Shown here: piece after piece, positions 27,036 to 37,093 of the stretch
How positions within the stretch are numbered: the first letter of the stretch is position 1
Layout: each line of letters starts with the position of its first letter
NCBI GenBank assembly: GCA_029252685.1
Contig: JAQXAY010000117.1
Span: 1-37,093 of the forward strand
Source of the DNA: Saprospiraceae bacterium
Lineage (GTDB): Bacteria > Bacteroidota > Bacteroidia > Chitinophagales > Saprospiraceae
DNA: 37,093 nt
Direction of reading: 5' to 3'
Translations under genes and position numbers: made by a program
Notes under the pieces: model-generated
The model's database searches: none
What the model was told of the DNA's origin: nothing
What the model saw: only the letters and a program-made list of their open reading frames with translations

Positions 27036-30000
27036 ATGAACAAAGCGTTAGTATACCAACCAAAGAATAAAATCAGAATTGTGACCGCCGCTTCCCTTTT
27101 CGATGGTCACGATGCAGCAATCAATATCATGCGTCGTGTGATGCAGAGTTCTGGTGCGGAGATTATCCACTTAGGACATAATCGGTCTGTTCAAGAGATC
27201 GTGAAAACTGCTATTCAAGAGGATGTTCAAGGTATAGCCATTACTTCCTATCAGGGAGGGCACAACGAATTTTTCAAGTACATGTATGACCTGTTGAAAG
27301 AGGCAGGCGCAGATCATATAAAGATCTTTGGTGGAGGAGGAGGTACTATACTTCCTTCGGAAATTAAAGAACTTCATGATCATGGGATCACCAGAATATA
27401 TTCTCCGGATGATGGCCGTGACATGGGTTTGCAGGGAATGATTAACCATGTATTGGAAAACTGTGATTTTCCAGTTGGAGTGAATCAAAAAGCGGATTTA
27501 TCCACTATTGAGGAAAAAAATTCAACTGCATTAGCTCAGCTGATTTCTGCTGTTGAGAACTTTCCTGAAGCGAGTGAAAGTTGGATGGAGGAGTTGAGGA
27601 AGAAGGTTGAAACATTGAATGTGCCAGTCTTAGGAATTACAGGTACTGGAGGTGCCGGTAAGTCTAGCTTGGTTGATGAACTGATTAGACGATTTTTGAT
27701 GGATTTTCCAGAGAAGCAGATCGGCGTTATTTCAGTAGATCCATCTAAGCGTAAGACCGGAGGTGCCCTTTTAGGAGATAGAATACGAATGAATTCAGCA
27801 AGGGATGAACGCGTATTTATGCGTTCACTGGCAACGCGCCAGTCGAATCTTGCCCTATCAAAGCACGTTCAAAGTGCTGTAGATATTATAAAGTCAGCGA
27901 ATTATGATTTAATTATTCTGGAGACTTCCGGTATCGGACAGTCTGATACGGAGATTATTGATCACTCGGATATGTCCTTGTATGTGATGACACCAGAATA
28001 TGGTGCGGCTACTCAGTTGGAGAAGATCGACATGCTTGACTTTGCTGATATCATTGCTTTGAACAAGTTTGATAAGCGTGGAGCATTGGATGCATTGAGA
28101 GATGTGCGTAAGCAGTATCAGCGTAACCACAACCTTTGGGAGGCTGATTTGGATACTATGCCAGTGTTTGGTACTATCGCTTCTCAGTTCAATGATCCGG
28201 GGATGAACAACCTGTATAAGCGTATCATGGATATGATCGCTGAGCGTACAGGTGCAGATTTGAAATCGACATTTGCAAAGTCTGACGAGGAGTCAGAAAA
28301 GATATATATCATTCCACCAAAGCGTACACGTTACCTTTCAGAGATCTCTGAGAACAACAGAGCTTATGACGAACGTGTGGAAAAGCAGGTAGGAATTGCA
28401 CGTAAGTTGTTTGGTTTGGAGCAGACTATTGAGTTATTAACATCAAGAGAGCAAAGCCCAGAACTTACAAATACCATTGAGCACTTAAAGAAAGAGCAAG
28501 CTTCCTTGGAGCTGGATCTGGATGGAGATAGCAAGCGTTTATTAGCAGCTTGGGAAGAAAAGAAAGCCGCTTATTCTGCGGATGAATTTATCTATAAAGT
28601 AAGAAACAAAGAGATTCGTGTTCCAACGTTTACAAGGTCTCTTTCTCAGTCAAAAATTCCAAGAGTAGTCCTTCCAAGGTATAAGGATTGGGGAGAAATA
28701 CTGATGTGGTGTTTACAGGAAAATGTACCTGGTGAATTCCCTTACACGGCGGGTGTATTCCCATTTAAGCGTAAAGGAGAAGATCCAACGAGGATGTTTG
28801 CCGGAGAGGGTGGACCAGAGCGCACGAATACGCGTTTCCACTATTTGTCTTCAGATATGCCAGCAGCTCGTTTGTCAACAGCATTTGATTCCGTTACATT
28901 ATATGGGGAAGATCCTGCACCTAGGCCCGATATATATGGTAAGGTGGGTAACTCAGGGGTGAGTATCTGTTGTTTGGATGATGCGAAGAAGTTGTACTCA
29001 GGTTTTGACCTTTGTGCACCGACGACTTCTGTATCTATGACCATCAATGGACCGGCAGCTACGCTTTGTGCCTTTTTTATGAATGCGGCTATTGATCAGC
29101 AGTGTGAGCTGTATATCAAGGAGCATGGACTGGAAGCAAAGGTAGAAGCGAAGAAAAAAGAACTATACGATGATAAGGGTCTGGAAAGGCCTTCCTATAA
29201 AGGAGCAATTCCTGACAATAATGATCAGCTTGGTTTGATGCTTTTAGGGCTTACAGGAGATTTGATCTTGGAGGCAGATGCTTATGAGCAATGCAGACTA
29301 AAGGCTTTATCTTCTGTTCGTGGTACCGTTCAGGCGGATATCCTGAAGGAGGATCAGGCACAGAACACTTGTATTTTCTCTACGGAGTTCTCTTTGAAGT
29401 TGATGGGAGATGTACAAGAGTACTTTATCCACAATAATGTTAGAAACTTCTACTCGGTATCGATTTCAGGTTACCATATTGCAGAGGCGGGTGCAAACCC
29501 AATCACGCAGTTGGCCTTTACCTTGTCTAATGGATTCACCTTTGTAGAGTACTACTTATCCAGAGGTATGGATATCAATGCCTTTGCACCAAACCTTTCC
29601 TTCTTCTTCTCCAATGGAGTAGATCCGGAATATGCGGTTATCGGCCGTGTAGCAAGAAGGATTTGGGCAAAAGCGATCAAGCATAAATACGGTGGTAATG
29701 ACCGTTCACAGAAGCTGAAGTATCATATTCAGACTTCCGGTCGTTCCCTGCACGCACAGGAGATTTCGTTCAACGATATCCGAACAACCCTGCAGGCACT
29801 TTATGCAATCTATGACAACTGTAATTCACTACATACAAATGCCTACGATGAGGCCATCACGACTCCTACGGAGGAATCTGTAAGGCGTGCAGTGGCGATT
29901 CAGATGATTATCAACCACGAGCTTGGATTGGCGAAGAATGAAAATACCTTACAAGGTTCATTCATCATCGAAGAGCTAACTGACCTGGTTGAAGAAGCGG

Positions 30001-30419
30001 TATTGACTGAGTTTGATCGCATCACCGAGCGTGGTGGGGTACTTGGAGCTATGGAGACTATGTATCAGCGTGGAAAGATACAGGAAGAGTCCCTATACTA
30101 CGAGACCTTAAAGCACAACGGAGACTATCCAATCATCGGTGTGAATACCTTCCTAAACAAGGATGGATCACCGACAGTCATTCCGGATGAGGTTATCCGT
30201 GCTACCGAGGATGAGAAGCAGGATCAGATCCGCACAGTGGAGAATCTTAAGACTTGTAAAGCTACTCAAGCAGAGCAGGCCCTGAAAGATCTTCAACAGG
30301 CAGCTATCCGCAATGAGAACCTCTTCGGTTATCTGATGGATGCTGGTAAGATCTGTTCACTAGGGCAGATCACCAATGCCTTGTATGAGGTGGGTGGTCA
30401 GTATAGGAGGAATATGTAA
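27036..30419 (+). CDS. icmF: Fused isobutyryl-CoA mutase (B12 domain, GTPase chaperone, mutase)
   Basis: This 1127-residue adenosylcobalamin enzyme interconverts isobutyryl-CoA and butyryl-CoA. Residues 12-145 form the B12-binding domain ([10 protein letters not shown], base-off ligand His25). Residues about 190-410 form a MeaB-like GTPase with P-loop GTGGAGKS (202-209) and LNKFDKRG (341-348). The mutase barrel runs from about 540 to the end. In it Phe574 (AGVFPFKR) and Gln775 ([10 protein letters not shown]) replace the Tyr and Arg of methylmalonyl-CoA mutase, which fits the isobutyryl type. A 60-70 residue insert (about 687-755) separates these sites. The gene is monocistronic, with its own promoter and a bidirectional terminator. 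Confidence 0.92.
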
Positions 30420-32366: not shown

Positions 32367-33833
32367 ATGAGCGGACAGAAGTTAGGATTAAAGCAAAAAA
32401 TGCAGTTTAAGCTTTCTCCTCAGCAGATTCAATTGATGAAATTGCTGCAACTGTCTGTTGCTGATTTAGGTCAACGTGTACAGGAAGAACTCGAATCCAA
32501 TCCAGTATTGGAGGAGGAAAATTACGATAATCAGGCAGAAGAGGTCGCAGAGACTAATGATGAGATTGAATACGACGATTATTTGAATGAATACCTGGAA
32601 GATGATCCTGTTACATACCGCATGACGGCTGATGCGGGTACAAGCGAGGAAGAGGAAAAACAAATGCCTATTGCCCTAAAGGAGTCTTTGTTTGATAAAC
32701 TCAAAGTTCAGCTTTTAGACTTAGAGTTGGATACAGTGGAGGAGCAGCTTATTGCAGCTCAGGTGATGGGTAGCATCGATGAAGATGGGTATATTCGCAG
32801 AGACCTTTTAGCAATTCAAGATGATCTCCTATTTATGCACAATAGGGATATACCGGAAAAGAACATCGAAAAGATCCTAAAACAGATACAAGGTTTTGAA
32901 CCTGCAGGTGTTGGAGCAAGAGACTTGAGAGAATGTTTGATGTTGCAGTTGAAGTATAAATTGGATAATGAAGATGCAGAGCCACCTGTCAGAAGATATT
33001 GGAAGACCGCTTGGATTATTCTTCGAGATCAATTTGAGCTTTTCTCCAAACGAAACTTTGATAAACTCATGCAGGAGTTTGATCTTACTCAAGCTGAAAT
33101 GCGCGAGGTTGTCGAGGAGATAACTCGGCTGAACCCAAAACCCGCTGCAACGCTTGGGGAGACACAGTCCACTGTACAGTTGACCATAACTCCGGATTTT
33201 ATAGTCCGTGAAAAGGATGATGAACTGATGTTGAGCATGACCAAAGGGAATATGCCAGAACTCAGGATATCCGATCACTATAGAGATCTGCTTAATTCGT
33301 ATAAAAAGGTGGATTCAAAAAAGGATAAAAAGAAAAAAGAGACGGTTCAGTTTATCAAGCAGAAAATCGATTCTGCCCAATGGTTTATTGAGGCAATTCG
33401 TCAAAGGCAGCAAACTCTTGAAGGAACTATGCATGCTATTATATCCATTCAAGAAGCTTATTTCAGGTCGGGTGATGATAAAAAGTTAGCTCCAATGCGG
33501 CTAAAAGATGTAGCTGAGTTGACGCATTTGGATGAGTCTACGATCTCAAGAGTAGCAAATAGTAAGTTTGTTTTAACAGAATTCGGTACAAAACCATTGA
33601 AATATTTTTTCTCGGAGTCTATGCAAAATGCAGAAGGAGAAGATATTTCTACAACAGAGATAAAGTCAACCCTTAAGGACTTAGTTGCTGCTGAGGATAA
33701 GCGCAGACCGCTTTCCGATGAAAAATTAAAAGATTTGCTGCAAGAAAAAGGATATACACTTGCTAGAAGGACAGTTGCCAAATACAGAGAACAACTGAAC
33801 ATTCCTGTCGCTCGATTGAGGAAGAATGTTTAA
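32367..33833 (+). CDS. rpoN: RNA polymerase sigma-54 factor
   Basis: This 488-residue alternative sigma factor needs AAA+ enhancer-binding activators. Region I (residues 1-50) has GLKQKMQFKLSPQQIQLMKL and the Gln/Leu-rich activator-contact helix. Acidic region II follows (about 45-100). The core-binding region III starts near 105, with GSIDEDGYI and GFEPAGVGARDLRECL. The DNA-binding part has LKDVAELTHLDESTISRV and ends in the RpoN box ARRTVAKYRE (466-475), near IPVARLRKNV. All regions are present, so it should be functional. The promoter of rimP starts just 15 bases after its stop. Confidence 0.96.
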   Translation: MSGQKLGLKQKMQFKLSPQQIQLMKLLQLSVADLGQRVQEELESNPVLEEENYDNQAEEVAETNDEIEYDDYLNEYLEDDPVTYRMTADAGTSEEEEKQMPIALKESLFDKLKVQLLDLELDTVEEQLIAAQVMGSIDEDGYIRRDLLAIQDDLLFMHNRDIPEKNIEKILKQIQGFEPAGVGARDLRECLMLQLKYKLDNEDAEPPVRRYWKTAWIILRDQFELFSKRNFDKLMQEFDLTQAEMREVVEEITRLNPKPAATLGETQSTVQLTITPDFIVREKDDELMLSMTKGNMPELRISDHYRDLLNSYKKVDSKKDKKKKETVQFIKQKIDSAQWFIEAIRQRQQTLEGTMHAIISIQEAYFRSGDDKKLAPMRLKDVAELTHLDESTISRVANSKFVLTEFGTKPLKYFFSESMQNAEGEDISTTEIKSTLKDLVAAEDKRRPLSDEKLKDLLQEKGYTLARRTVAKYREQLNIPVARLRKNV

Positions 33834-33848
33834 TAGCTTACATTTTTC

Positions 33849-33879
33849 TTGTGAAAATCAATAAAATACCATACTTTTG
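33849..33879 (+). promoter_or_regulatory. rimP: Bacteroidota-type promoter of the rimP-nusA-infB operon
   Basis: TTG (33849-33851), a 20-base spacer and TACTTTTG (33872-33879) give an exact match to the -33/-7 consensus and are the best promoter in the window. Transcription should start near 33885. The leader of about 70 bases holds a terminator-like hairpin before the rimP start. Confidence 0.7.
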
Positions 33880-33896
33880 CAGTACAAACAAAAAAC

Positions 33897-33924
33897 GAGG
33901 GAACGATTCAGTTCCCTCTTTTTT
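33897..33924 (+). terminator. Terminator or attenuator hairpin in the rimP leader
   Basis: The perfect 8-bp stem GAGGGAAC (33897-33904) and GTTCCCTC (33911-33918) encloses GATTCA, and six T follow (33919-33924). It lies about 12 bases after the predicted transcription start and 29 bases before rimP. It may terminate rpoN read-through, but because it is downstream of the rimP promoter it would also act on the rimP transcript. Confidence 0.8.
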
Positions 33925-33953
33925 GTATCCATACTATTTAAATTGATCGAAAG

Positions 33954-34430
33954 GTGGTAGAAGACAAGATAAAAGCATTAGTTGACGAAAAGCTCAAAGA
34001 GGAGCTGTATGAAGATTGTTTCTTCGTGGAGATGCTTTTAAAAGGAGATAACAGAATAGAAATTTATTTAGATAGTGATTCAGGGATTTCATTTCTGCAG
34101 TGTCAGCGCATGAGCAGGCACGTTGAAGCAGTCCTTGATGAGGAACAATGGTTTGGTGTTAAGTATACCCTTGATGTATCTTCTCCAGGCATTGGAAAGC
34201 CCTTGAAGTTACATCGCCAGTATTTAAAGAATATTGGACGTGACTTGGAAGTTCGCGTAGAAGGTGAAAAACCTGTAGTTGGTGAATTAATCGACGTGCA
34301 GGATGAAATTTTTACTGTAGTTCGCGAAGAAAAGATTAAAGAGGGTAAAAAGAATGTGAAAAAGATGGTGGAATACACATACCGTTTTGATGCAATCAAT
34401 ATGGCTAAGGTGAAACCACGATTTAATTAA
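33954..34430 (+). CDS. rimP: Ribosome maturation factor RimP
   Basis: This 158-residue cytoplasmic protein is needed for 30S subunit maturation. The family layout is visible: an N-terminal alpha/beta domain starting VEDKIKALVDEKLKEELYED, the conserved LDVSSPGIGKPLKLHRQY (about 79-96), and a C-terminal SH3-like domain with GELIDVQDEIFTVV. The start is GTG at 33954, chosen because the family begins a few residues before this EDKI segment and no upstream ATG keeps the frame. It is the first gene of the standard rimP-nusA-infB cluster. The strong promoter and hairpin just upstream suggest regulated expression. Confidence 0.92.
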   Translation: MVEDKIKALVDEKLKEELYEDCFFVEMLLKGDNRIEIYLDSDSGISFLQCQRMSRHVEAVLDEEQWFGVKYTLDVSSPGIGKPLKLHRQYLKNIGRDLEVRVEGEKPVVGELIDVQDEIFTVVREEKIKEGKKNVKKMVEYTYRFDAINMAKVKPRFN

Positions 34431-34460
34431 TAATATTTATTGCTCAGAAATTTTGCTGAA

Positions 34461-35693
34461 ATGAATTTGGTAGATACTTTCTCGGAGTTTAATGCTGGCA
34501 AGAACATAGACAGGCCAACTTTAATAAAGGTTTTAGAAGATGTTTTTAAAACCTTGATCCGCAAAAAATACGGAACTGATGATAACTTTGATGTAATTGT
34601 AAACGTCCAAGAGGGTGACCTTGAGCTATGGCGTGTTCGTAAAATCGTCTCCGATGGTGAGGTGATGGACGAACAGAGTCAGATCTCAATTACAGAGGCA
34701 CTTTCAATTGACGACGATTACGAAGTAGGTGACGATTGTTATGAAAAACTAACACTCGAGCACTTCGGAAGACGTTCAATTCAGGCAGCTCGTCAAACAC
34801 TGATTTCCAGAATTATGGAATTAGAAAAAGACGAGATCTACAAGAAGTACTCAGACCGTGTGGGTGATATGATAGTAGGTGAGGTTAATCAGATTCTTAA
34901 AAGAGAAGTGTTTATCCTCGATGACGCAACTGGCAATGAAGTTGTTCTTCCAAGAAATGAGATGATCAAGGCCGATTTCTACCGTAAGGGAGATATGGTT
35001 CGTGCGATTATCAAAGAAGTTCGAATGAAGAATAATAATCCGGTTGTCGTAGTATCTAGAGTGGACTCTGACTTCCTGGCTAAACTTCTTGAGCAAGAGG
35101 TTCCAGAGATTGAAGACGGCTTGATTACGATTAAGAACATTGAACGTCTACCCGGAGAGCGTGCAAAAGTTGCTGTAGAGTCTTACGATGATCGTATTGA
35201 CCCAGTCGGTGCATGTGTCGGTATGAAAGGTTCAAGAATTCATGGTATTGTTCGTGAGTTAAAAAATGAGAACATCGATATCGTAAACTTTACGAATAAC
35301 GAGACTCTATATATTCAACGTTCATTGACTCCTGCAAAAGTTCTTTCTATAGAGCTTGATAAAGAGAATATGAGGGCTTCTGTATTTTTAGATCCAGATC
35401 AAGTATCGCTTGCTATTGGTAAGGGAGGTTCAAATATTAAGCTTGCGTCAAAGCTTACTGGATTCGAAATTGATGTATTCAGAAATGCTCCAGTAGAGAT
35501 TGATGACGTTAATTTGGAAGAATTTGGCGATGAATTAGAGAGCTGGGTGATTGAAGAATTGAAGAATATTGGATGTGATACAGCAAGGTCAGTTCTAGAG
35601 CTAGATGCCGATGAATTAATAAGAAGAACAGACTTAGAAGAGGAGACAGTTAAGGAGATTTTAGGTATTCTTGCTTCTGAGTTTGAAGATTAA
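34461..35693 (+). CDS. nusA: Transcription termination/antitermination protein NusA
   Basis: The protein has 410 residues from the ATG at 34461. The frame is open further to a TTG at 34440, but homologues in Bacteroidota begin MNL..F.EF...KNIDRPT, so I chose the ATG. The RNA polymerase-binding N-domain spans about 1-125. S1 lies at about 128-200 (GDMIVGEVNQILKREVFIL), KH1 has GACVGMKGSRI (250-260), and KH2 has AIGKGGSNIKLASKLTG (318-334). A short helix-hairpin-helix tail ends at Glu-Asp (IGCDTARSVLELDADELI). It controls pausing, termination and antitermination. It lies 30 bp after rimP. Confidence 0.94.
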   Translation: MNLVDTFSEFNAGKNIDRPTLIKVLEDVFKTLIRKKYGTDDNFDVIVNVQEGDLELWRVRKIVSDGEVMDEQSQISITEALSIDDDYEVGDDCYEKLTLEHFGRRSIQAARQTLISRIMELEKDEIYKKYSDRVGDMIVGEVNQILKREVFILDDATGNEVVLPRNEMIKADFYRKGDMVRAIIKEVRMKNNNPVVVVSRVDSDFLAKLLEQEVPEIEDGLITIKNIERLPGERAKVAVESYDDRIDPVGACVGMKGSRIHGIVRELKNENIDIVNFTNNETLYIQRSLTPAKVLSIELDKENMRASVFLDPDQVSLAIGKGGSNIKLASKLTGFEIDVFRNAPVEIDDVNLEEFGDELESWVIEELKNIGCDTARSVLELDADELIRRTDLEEETVKEILGILASEFED

Positions 35694-35853: not shown

Positions 35854-37093
35854 ATGGCGAAAAATTTAGTCAAGGTTGCAAAGGAATTTAATGTAGGCTC
35901 ATCTACGATTGTCGAACACTTGTTAGACAAGGGTTTCGAGATTGGTAATAAGCCAAACGCCAAGGTTAGTGACGAAATGTACAGTGTACTTTCGGCTAGA
36001 TTTGGTGATTCCAAGGTGACGAAGAAGAAGGCGGAGAATGTCGAGATAGGTATTAGACCCTCAGGAAATACCTCAGAGAATGAGAATGCAGATACTAAAA
36101 AGCCTGCAGCACCGGCAGCCAAAGCAACAGAGCCTACTGAGACAACCCCAGTCGAAGAAGTTAGCCCTAAGAAAGAAGAAACTCCAATAGTTAAGGAGAC
36201 CCCTAAAGTAGAAGCTCCTAAAGAGGAAGCTCCTAAAAAAGAGGAAAAGCCTGCTGAGGATTCTGAAAAGAAAGCAGCAAGTGCCCCTAAACTCAAAGGA
36301 CCTAAGTTGGTTGGAAAGATCGACCTAGAATCTTCTGGACGCAAACCTGCAAAAAAGAAGCCAGCAGAAAAGGCTAAAGTAGAAACTTCAAAAGAGCAAA
36401 AGCCAGCAGCAAAGGCAGCACCCAAAAAGGAAAAGCCTGCAGTCGCAAAAGAAACTCCTAAGCAACCAGCTCCTAAAGTAGAAGCTGCTGAGAAGAAGGC
36501 TAGCACTCCAAAGGAGACGCCTAAGGCTGAACCTGCGAAGGAAGCGAAAAAGGAGGTGACCGAAAAGACAACCAAGGAGGCTGATGCAAAAGAAGCTCCA
36601 GCGAAAGATGCTGCTCCAGGTACTTTCAGAGGAAAAACTCCAGAATTGAGAGGTCTTAAGATTCTTGGTAAAATCAAGATCGAGGAAAAGCCTAAGAAAA
36701 AAGCAACCAAGCCTGATGATAAAAAGGCTAAAGATAATGACCCTAACAAGCGTAAGCGTAAGCGTAAACGCGTAACTGTTGGAGGTAGTAATGTGAAGAG
36801 TGGTGGCAACAACCAACAAGGTGGTGGCCAAAGAACTGGCAACAACCAACAAGGTGGTGGCCAAAGAACTGGTAGCAACCAACAAGGTGGTGGACGTGGT
36901 CCTAATAATCGCCCAAATCAAGGCGGTGGACGCGGACCTGGTAGTCGTCCTGGTCAAGGTGGAAGATTTCCAAACAGAAGATTCCAAGGGAATAGTAGAA
37001 ACCCAGATGAAGTAAAAGAAGTTTCTAAAAAAGAGATTGAGGATAAGATCAAGTCTACTATGGCCAGAATTAATTCTGGTGGTAAGAAGAATA
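35854..37093 (+). CDS. infB: Translation initiation factor IF-2, N-terminal part (cut by window edge)
   Basis: The frame is open from ATG 35854 to the right edge, 413 codons without a stop. It starts with an IF2 N-terminal domain (MAKNLVKVAKEFNVGSSTIV, then EHLLDKGFEIGNKPNAKVSD). A long Lys/Ala/Pro/Glu-rich disordered linker follows, with KRKRKRKR near residue 306. Gly/Asn/Gln repeats start at residue 318. It ends in the segment KKEIEDKIKSTMARI that precedes the GTPase domain in Bacteroidota IF-2. The GTPase part is outside the window. IF-2 places initiator tRNA on the ribosome. It is the third gene of the rimP-nusA-infB operon. A 342-codon open frame on the opposite strand (35850-36878) is a composition artefact. 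Confidence 0.95.
   Translation, partial: MAKNLVKVAKEFNVGSSTIVEHLLDKGFEIGNKPNAKVSDEMYSVLSARFGDSKVTKKKAENVEIGIRPSGNTSENENADTKKPAAPAAKATEPTETTPVEEVSPKKEETPIVKETPKVEAPKEEAPKKEEKPAEDSEKKAASAPKLKGPKLVGKIDLESSGRKPAKKKPAEKAKVETSKEQKPAAKAAPKKEKPAVAKETPKQPAPKVEAAEKKASTPKETPKAEPAKEAKKEVTEKTTKEADAKEAPAKDAAPGTFRGKTPELRGLKILGKIKIEEKPKKKATKPDDKKAKDNDPNKRKRKRKRVTVGGSNVKSGGNNQQGGGQRTGNNQQGGGQRTGSNQQGGGRGPNNRPNQGGGRGPGSRPGQGGRFPNRRFQGNSRNPDEVKEVSKKEIEDKIKSTMARINSGGKKN
36805..36897 (+). repeat. infB: 33-bp in-frame tandem repeat inside infB
   Basis: Two copies of an 11-codon unit (36805-36837 and 36838-36870, identical) encode GNNQQGGGQRT. A third, diverged copy follows from 36871 (GSNQQGGGRG). The identical copies suggest recent duplication by slippage. 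The repeat stays in frame and extends the disordered linker of IF-2. Confidence 0.9.

Follow-up and report, generated by a model that had tools for sequence, protein, structure and literature searches.

The hairpin that stands 5' of the rimP-nusA-infB operon in a Saprospiraceae bacterium is, in our reading, the promoter-proximal intrinsic terminator of that operon, i.e., an attenuator of the rimP-leader kind, with NusA as its probable sensor, and we place the probability of this reading at roughly 0.65. Its two parts stand on different ground: premature termination at the hairpin is strongly supported by the sequence, namely by the computed position, structure and conservation of the hairpin and by a layout that makes its passage obligatory, whereas NusA is assigned the role of sensor by analogy with better-studied systems. 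The DNA analyzed here, hereinafter the window, is a stretch of 37,093 nucleotides (contig JAQXAY010000117.1) from a 3.44-Mb draft genome in 297 contigs. Judged by NusA, with entries from this genome itself possibly absent from the comparison, the closest named relatives are metagenome assemblies of Saprospiraceae, which places the organism in or near that family.

The leader lies in the 120-bp gap between rpoN (32367..33833, + strand; TIGR02395), the upstream neighbor in this genus, and rimP (33954..34430, + strand), which begins with GTG and is recognized by NF002531 (E 3.9e-32, 111 bits, below the curated cut-off of 123). After 9 nt, rimP is followed by nusA (34440..35693, + strand; TIGR01953, E 1.1e-109) and then by the N-terminal part of infB (35854..37093, + strand), which extends beyond the window and is named from operon order and the initial annotation. 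No terminator-like site was found in the 160-nt gap 3' of nusA. Two further features of the neighborhood were noted: a fused isobutyryl-CoA mutase/GTPase, IcmF (window 27036-30419; 1127 aa; NF045497, 1802 bits), is encoded two genes before rpoN, and the N-terminal part of InfB includes a repetitive stretch rich in Gly, Gln, Asn and Arg (window ~36780-36990).

Within the gap, the initial annotation had described TTG-N20-TACTTTTG followed by a perfect 8-bp hairpin, six T and, 29 bases on, rimP, and this description is correct base for base. The -33 element TTG (33849..33851, + strand) and the -7 element TACTTTTG (33872..33879, + strand), a TAnnTTTG box, are separated by a spacer of 20 and constitute a promoter of the Bacteroidota primary-sigma type. 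Counting five bases 3' from the box to reach +1, in line with the assignment of the box to -12 to -5 in PMC9723704, we infer a transcription start near 33884; the predicted RNA would thus comprise a 13-nt leader (33884..33896, + strand), the terminator hairpin GAGGGAAC-gattca-GTTCCCTC (33897..33918, + strand) and the T6 run that would supply the U tract (33919..33924, + strand), ~41 nt in all when the T run is included. The arms of the stem occupy 33897-33904 and 33911-33918, with a 6-nt loop at 33905-33910 (all on the + strand), and 29 nt separate the T run from the GTG of rimP. The stem has a folding energy of -13.5 kcal/mol, which none of 200 shuffles equaled. A terminator scan also calls the hairpin on the + strand; by itself this is no proof because the 6-kb region contains 4 terminator-like sites against a shuffled mean of 4.3. 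The promoter model of the scan is of the E. coli type and does not cover the promoter type of the rimP leader.

The promoter/hairpin order in close relatives, to which the initial annotation had tied its proposal, is present in the two genus members G001 and G002, and the elements of the rpoN-rimP gap are conserved there, both genomes keeping TTG-N20-TAnnTTTG, the GAGGGAAC/GTTCCCTC arms and the six T; their stems are identical to that of the window and their loops differ. More widely, we surveyed 100 relatives from the order, of which 96 have a RimP match, with upstream DNA obtained from all 96 and 95 loci judgeable, and took in 88 of 152 further matches. By a strict test (a perfect stem of at least 6 bp whose arm has 4 or more G or C, a tail with 5 or more T out of 7, and no more than 150 nt from rimP), 75 of the 95 order loci have a terminator-like hairpin, as against 0/475 dinucleotide shuffles and 1/282 windows farther upstream. 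The hairpin was likewise found in 32/35 other loci of the class (shuffles 0/175, control windows 5/103) and in 29/53 from elsewhere in the phylum (shuffles 3/265, control windows 0/158). A chance hairpin is ruled out by these counts, which are lower bounds, since the test does not admit mismatched stems or loops and gaps of greater length: G048, G161 and G208, for example, fail it and have imperfect leader hairpins visible by eye, the misses having been inspected in part.

In a set of 80 named loci, 77 of them long enough to be judged and 3 too short, 65/77 pass at a looser finder threshold, and 58 of these 65 have a TAnnTTTG box. Loci that pass include those of Pedobacter, Mucilaginibacter, Brumimicrobium, Crocinitomix, Lewinella and Bacteroidales assemblies. 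One of them (L190) passes on a hairpin other than that of the leader, the leader hairpin also being seen by eye. Inspection by eye of the 12 that fail revealed a leader hairpin in 11, the exception being L195. Four Chitinophaga loci (L236, L241, L242 and L246) keep the hairpin (GAAGGGGAC..) with a few bases between stem and T run, and the T run is weak in G092; to judge from their sequences, termination may be poor in all five. In G029 and G048 the finder picked the wrong hairpin and the leader hairpin is present by eye; both were excluded from the class-level set of 128 loci used below and retained among the 95 and among the 130 stem picks. The one order locus left unjudged, G024, has only 178 nt upstream of rimP, which starts that far inside its contig; on another contig of the same genome a box and a hairpin of the rimP-leader type lie near the end (L287; G024:C269:232-268), and this leader has probably been split in two by the assembly.

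Several observations were made alongside this survey. Records titled Verrucomicrobia and Williamsia (L215 and L268) have a Bacteroidota-like NusA and rimP leader, and their titles look wrong. A tandem pair of terminator-like hairpins precedes rimP in L163, L164, L166 and L175 (G102, G146, G127 and G181; families f31, f43 and f47), recalling the tandem arrangement reported in some Gammaproteobacteria. In L247 and L267 (Bacteroidales, Lentimicrobiaceae), an apparent tRNA 3' part, recognized by eye, lies just 5' of the leader hairpin, at a distance of ~400-680 nt from the NusA match. No TAnnTTTG box was seen to separate the tRNA-like part from the hairpin, and this layout recalls the metY-rimP arrangement of E. 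coli.

A strict TAnnTTTG box occurs 3-42 nt before the chosen stem in 86/95 order loci (median box-to-stem distance 19 nt), in 35/35 other loci of the class and in 17/52 loci outside it, counts which are somewhat inflated because the finder gives a bonus for a box, and which compare with a background of 0.62 boxes per kb. A TTG with a spacer of 18-22 accompanies the strict box in 44 of the 86 order loci.

The gene to which the hairpin belongs can be told from its neighbors. Upstream genes were taken as reading frames of at least 90 aa rather than annotations, over 1500 nt or, in a few loci (e.g., G024, G074, G091 and G095), up to an earlier end of the contig. Only 5/96 order loci have rpoN in this stretch; an upstream frame was found in 92 loci, the nearest one being divergent in 45 of them. 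The hairpin therefore belongs to rimP. In G029, where rpoN is adjacent, an additional strong hairpin with a weak T tail stands between rpoN and the leader. On the downstream side, nusA is 3' of rimP in 184/184 loci, and we found none of the 184 in which the two are apart. The stem ends no more than 45 nt from the RimP match in 97/128 class-level loci, and a TAnnTTTG box is absent between the two in 126/128; in the window, such a box is likewise missing from the 29 nt that follow the T run up to the GTG. A promoter of the TTG/TAnnTTTG kind spans ~35 nt from TTG to +1, and therefore none fits between the T run and the GTG of the window. It follows from this short, box-free stretch that operon mRNA, be it from the operon's own promoter or from rpoN, must read through the hairpin. 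As this is the sole + strand terminator that the scan of the window detected in the rpoN-rimP gap, rpoN mRNA probably ends at the hairpin too in this genus.

At the class level the core of the stem is GGG/CCC, with GGG in the 5' arm of 121/130 picks, and the pair after GGG (n=124) is A-U in 59, G-C in 57, G-U in 6 and C-G in 2; these stems were found by pairing, and their full pairing is thus by construction. In a gap-free subset (alignment A4; 16 of 128 rows, selected for a loop length of six), the pair after GGG has changed on both sides in 6/16 rows, a value that 0/500 shuffles reach. This is the one pair that covaries. Six of the eight pairs are invariant, which is why two of five covariation measures do not rise above the shuffles (pairs changed on both sides, 487/500; further pair types, 500/500). 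Two other alignments were excluded from the pair counts, viz., A2, in which MAFFT misaligned the 5' arms, and A5, which mixed strands.

As an exact string, GAGGGRAC-N2-10-GTYCCCTCTT is present in 54/100 relatives and marks the rimP leader in 53 of these 54, in the sense direction in 52, whereas in 1 the palindrome was read on the opposite strand alone. A covariance model that covers the hairpin but not the promoter (R1) reached E <=0.001 in 42/60 genomes and missed 18/60. In the genome of the window its best match is the rimP site (45.6 bits), and the 13 rows returned correspond to rimP and seven other places, the latter at no more than 38 bits. We fetched 20 R1 places other than known rimP leaders, including all seven of this genome: 14/20 are within ~20 nt 3' of the end of a same-strand reading frame, 12/20 have an opposite-strand frame facing them, and 18/20 lack a box in the preceding 45 nt. 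A box precedes the remaining two, from G019 and G024, that of G024 probably being its own rimP leader at the contig end. R1 also matches gene-end terminators in G000, G001 and G002. Thus, this genus seems to have the hairpin form as a common strong terminator which, at rimP, has been placed just behind a promoter. As a separate matter, four equal-score matches spaced exactly 101 nt apart (L290; G009:C98, ~1728-2070) apparently represent a tandem repeat containing a GAGGGAAC-type hairpin.

Outside Bacteroidia the stem is replaced by lineage, with ATGGGC..GCCCAT and GTGGG..CCCAC in some, and arm-reversed forms, TCGCCC..GGGCGA or ATAGCCCG..CGGGCTAT, in others. Reversed arms were noted in L152-L157, L160-L161, L172-L173 and L188 (families f32, f34, f37 and f52). 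The 5' arm is C-rich in 22/52 finder picks from outside Bacteroidia; for f31, f43 and f47, which have two hairpins, the finder took the second. The reversed arms argue against recognition of a G-rich arm, and, since the sequence changes by lineage under a constant form and place, hairpin strength rather than a G-rich arm would appear to be what counts.

The leader itself leaves little room for a switch. The segment before the stem has a median length of 17 nt (121 loci, assumed start), and pairing of at least 5 bp with the 5' arm occurs in 17/118 loci, slightly more than the ~10 that shuffled leaders predict, with no common alternative structure and no general antiterminator pairing among the 118. 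Given a leader this short and the lack of a common alternative pairing, a classical two-hairpin switch is unlikely. For the same reason, i.e., a leader too short for a classical antiterminator, the fraction of polymerases that pass would most likely be set by a factor bound to the polymerase.

We accordingly envisage the following course of events. Polymerase would start near 33884 and, after ~41 nt, reach a strong hairpin followed by a U tract; a share of the polymerases would halt there, and the remainder would yield the rimP-nusA-infB mRNA. NusA can help such hairpins to form and acts as a termination factor (PMC12288461), and this suggests a feedback in which abundant NusA would aid hairpin formation, thereby increasing termination and reducing the amount of NusA made. 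A hairpin as strong as that of the window (-13.5 kcal/mol) may need little NusA. Of the autogenous NusA attenuation put forward in the initial annotation, the promoter-proximal attenuation of rimP-nusA-infB (+ strand) emerges as the best reading, and NusA, for which there is precedent elsewhere, would be the most likely sensor.

The most serious competitor, though in our estimate an unlikely one, holds that the terminator removes a constant share of the transcripts of a strong promoter, unadjusted by any factor. The very short leader without a general antiterminator, the strength of the hairpin, and its sharing of form with ordinary gene-end terminators in the genus are all what such an arrangement would look like. 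Against it, autogenous control by NusA at the leader is reported in B. subtilis (PMC12288461), and control by NusA has been proposed for both E. coli and S. agalactiae (PMC2965389; PMC4448216). Moreover, a weaker promoter would be the simpler route to a constant level, yet the hairpin has been kept across much of the phylum.

A regulated attenuator could also answer to something other than NusA: RimP, IF2, NusG or ppGpp might act on the polymerase instead. The linkage of nusA to rimP in all loci cannot tell NusA from RimP or IF2 in this respect, as the latter two are encoded in the same operon; RimP was named as a possible sensor by Naville and Gautheret (PMC2965389), and in B. subtilis intrinsic termination has NusG as one of its factors (PMC8060035). 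However, the flipping of the arm sequence between lineages speaks against a sequence-specific RNA binder, and the evidence that we found in the literature for the rimP operon, in the sources as available to us, concerns NusA alone, and we therefore consider a different sensor improbable.

More improbable still is a stand-alone RNA of ~41 nt with a function of its own, ending at the terminator, which the initial annotation had mentioned. A promoter and a terminator alone suffice to make such an RNA, and the leader matches 0 Rfam families at the gathering score; but the leader and loop sequences vary while the stem, the box and the place before rimP are kept, and the exact stem pattern has only 2 sites away from rimP in 100 genomes, one of these being the contig-edge site of G024 with its box. 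A short RNA of this length would rather be a by-product of leader termination. Finally, the idea that the hairpin is the rpoN terminator, with rimP transcribed from a second promoter hidden further downstream, has the slightest claim of all: the hairpin may indeed serve both genes in this genus, but it is kept before rimP whatever the upstream gene, G029 has a separate hairpin next to its adjacent rpoN, and we reject this as the main explanation on the upstream-gene survey and the box-free stem-rimP stretch.

Returning to attenuation with NusA as the probable sensor, we tentatively suggest a wider interpretation, in which this is a minimal NusA feedback, built from one bare hairpin ~10-20 nt after the start, that predates the Bacteroidota radiation, lineages outside Bacteroidia included. 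It would operate with neither a sensor domain nor an antiterminator, the stem having been replaced or arm-reversed in several lineages, and the polymerase-NusA complex would read the strength of the hairpin and the U tract. A terminator passed by all operon mRNA would set the level of NusA, a general termination factor, and of IF2 where infB follows. To our knowledge, the elongation factors of Bacteroidota have been little studied, and the whole device in the window, amounting to one hairpin on a ~41-nt RNA, would make a simple test bed for the relation between NusA level and intrinsic termination. The stem swaps between lineages likewise provide a natural test of hairpin sequence against hairpin strength.

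An Rfam family for the rimP leader exists. The window leader nonetheless matches no family at the gathering score, and no rimP family is among its 11 matches at E up to 10, all of which are far below their gathering scores; assignment to a known Rfam family is thus rejected. By its features, the window hairpin is the rimP-leader attenuator described by Naville and Gautheret in 2010 (PMC2965389). It shares with the published element a short terminator hairpin 5' of rimP-nusA-infB with a T stretch, arms with GGG on the 5' side and CCC on the 3' side (in the window, GAGGGAAC/GTTCCCTC), a terminator located 4-130 nt before the gene (the window having 29 nt after the T run), and the lack, in its general form, of a larger conserved element or a visible antiterminator. 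It differs in that Bacteroidia have A-T or G-C next to GGG (A-T in the window), in contrast to the weaker c-g of that report. The published signature was reported as unused by other terminators; here the exact pattern is at rimP in 53/54 genomes with matches, and the looser model R1 matches gene ends as well. The legend in that paper names Firmicutes and Gammaproteobacteria, and its main text, as distinct from its species tables, has no occurrence of Bacteroid, Flavobact or Cytophag.

Individual examples come from three bacteria. In the S. agalactiae gbs0413-gbs0418 region, RNA-seq showed that transcription ahead of rimP-nusA-infB terminates 31 nt from its start; the short and long transcripts share one start, and a NusA feedback was proposed (PMC4448216). 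That case concerns a Firmicute and was measured by RNA-seq, whereas the ~41 nt of the window are predicted. In B. subtilis, NusA is reported to be autoregulated via NusA-stimulated termination in the leader (PMC12288461, citing its reference 34); its leader is 180 nt long according to PMC2965389, and NusA dependence has been studied there, while the window is known from its sequence. The metY-rimP leader of E. coli similarly has a GGGCTTTAGGCCC hairpin with T7 shortly 5' of rimP; it differs in being preceded by the tRNA metY and a second, upstream terminator, and its hairpin is weaker (-7.4 kcal/mol, with 33/200 shuffles equally good).

Within Bacteroidota, precedent is slender. A structured 5' element before rimP, also found in other Flavobacteriaceae and with no Rfam hit, has been reported from Flavobacterium psychrophilum in a single main-text clause that gives neither structure nor mechanism (PMC9723704). 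It is the only account of a rimP leader, terminator or attenuation in the phylum that we found in the literature, judged in part by titles; the main text of the B. thetaiotaomicron transcriptome study (PMC7366714) mentions neither rimP nor nusA. The kind of element is therefore already known, and in Bacteroidota it had, in the literature available to us, only been hinted at, in flavobacteria. What the present work adds is a phylum-wide survey, the minimal anatomy of the leader, the lack of a general antiterminator, and the reversed arms of some lineages.
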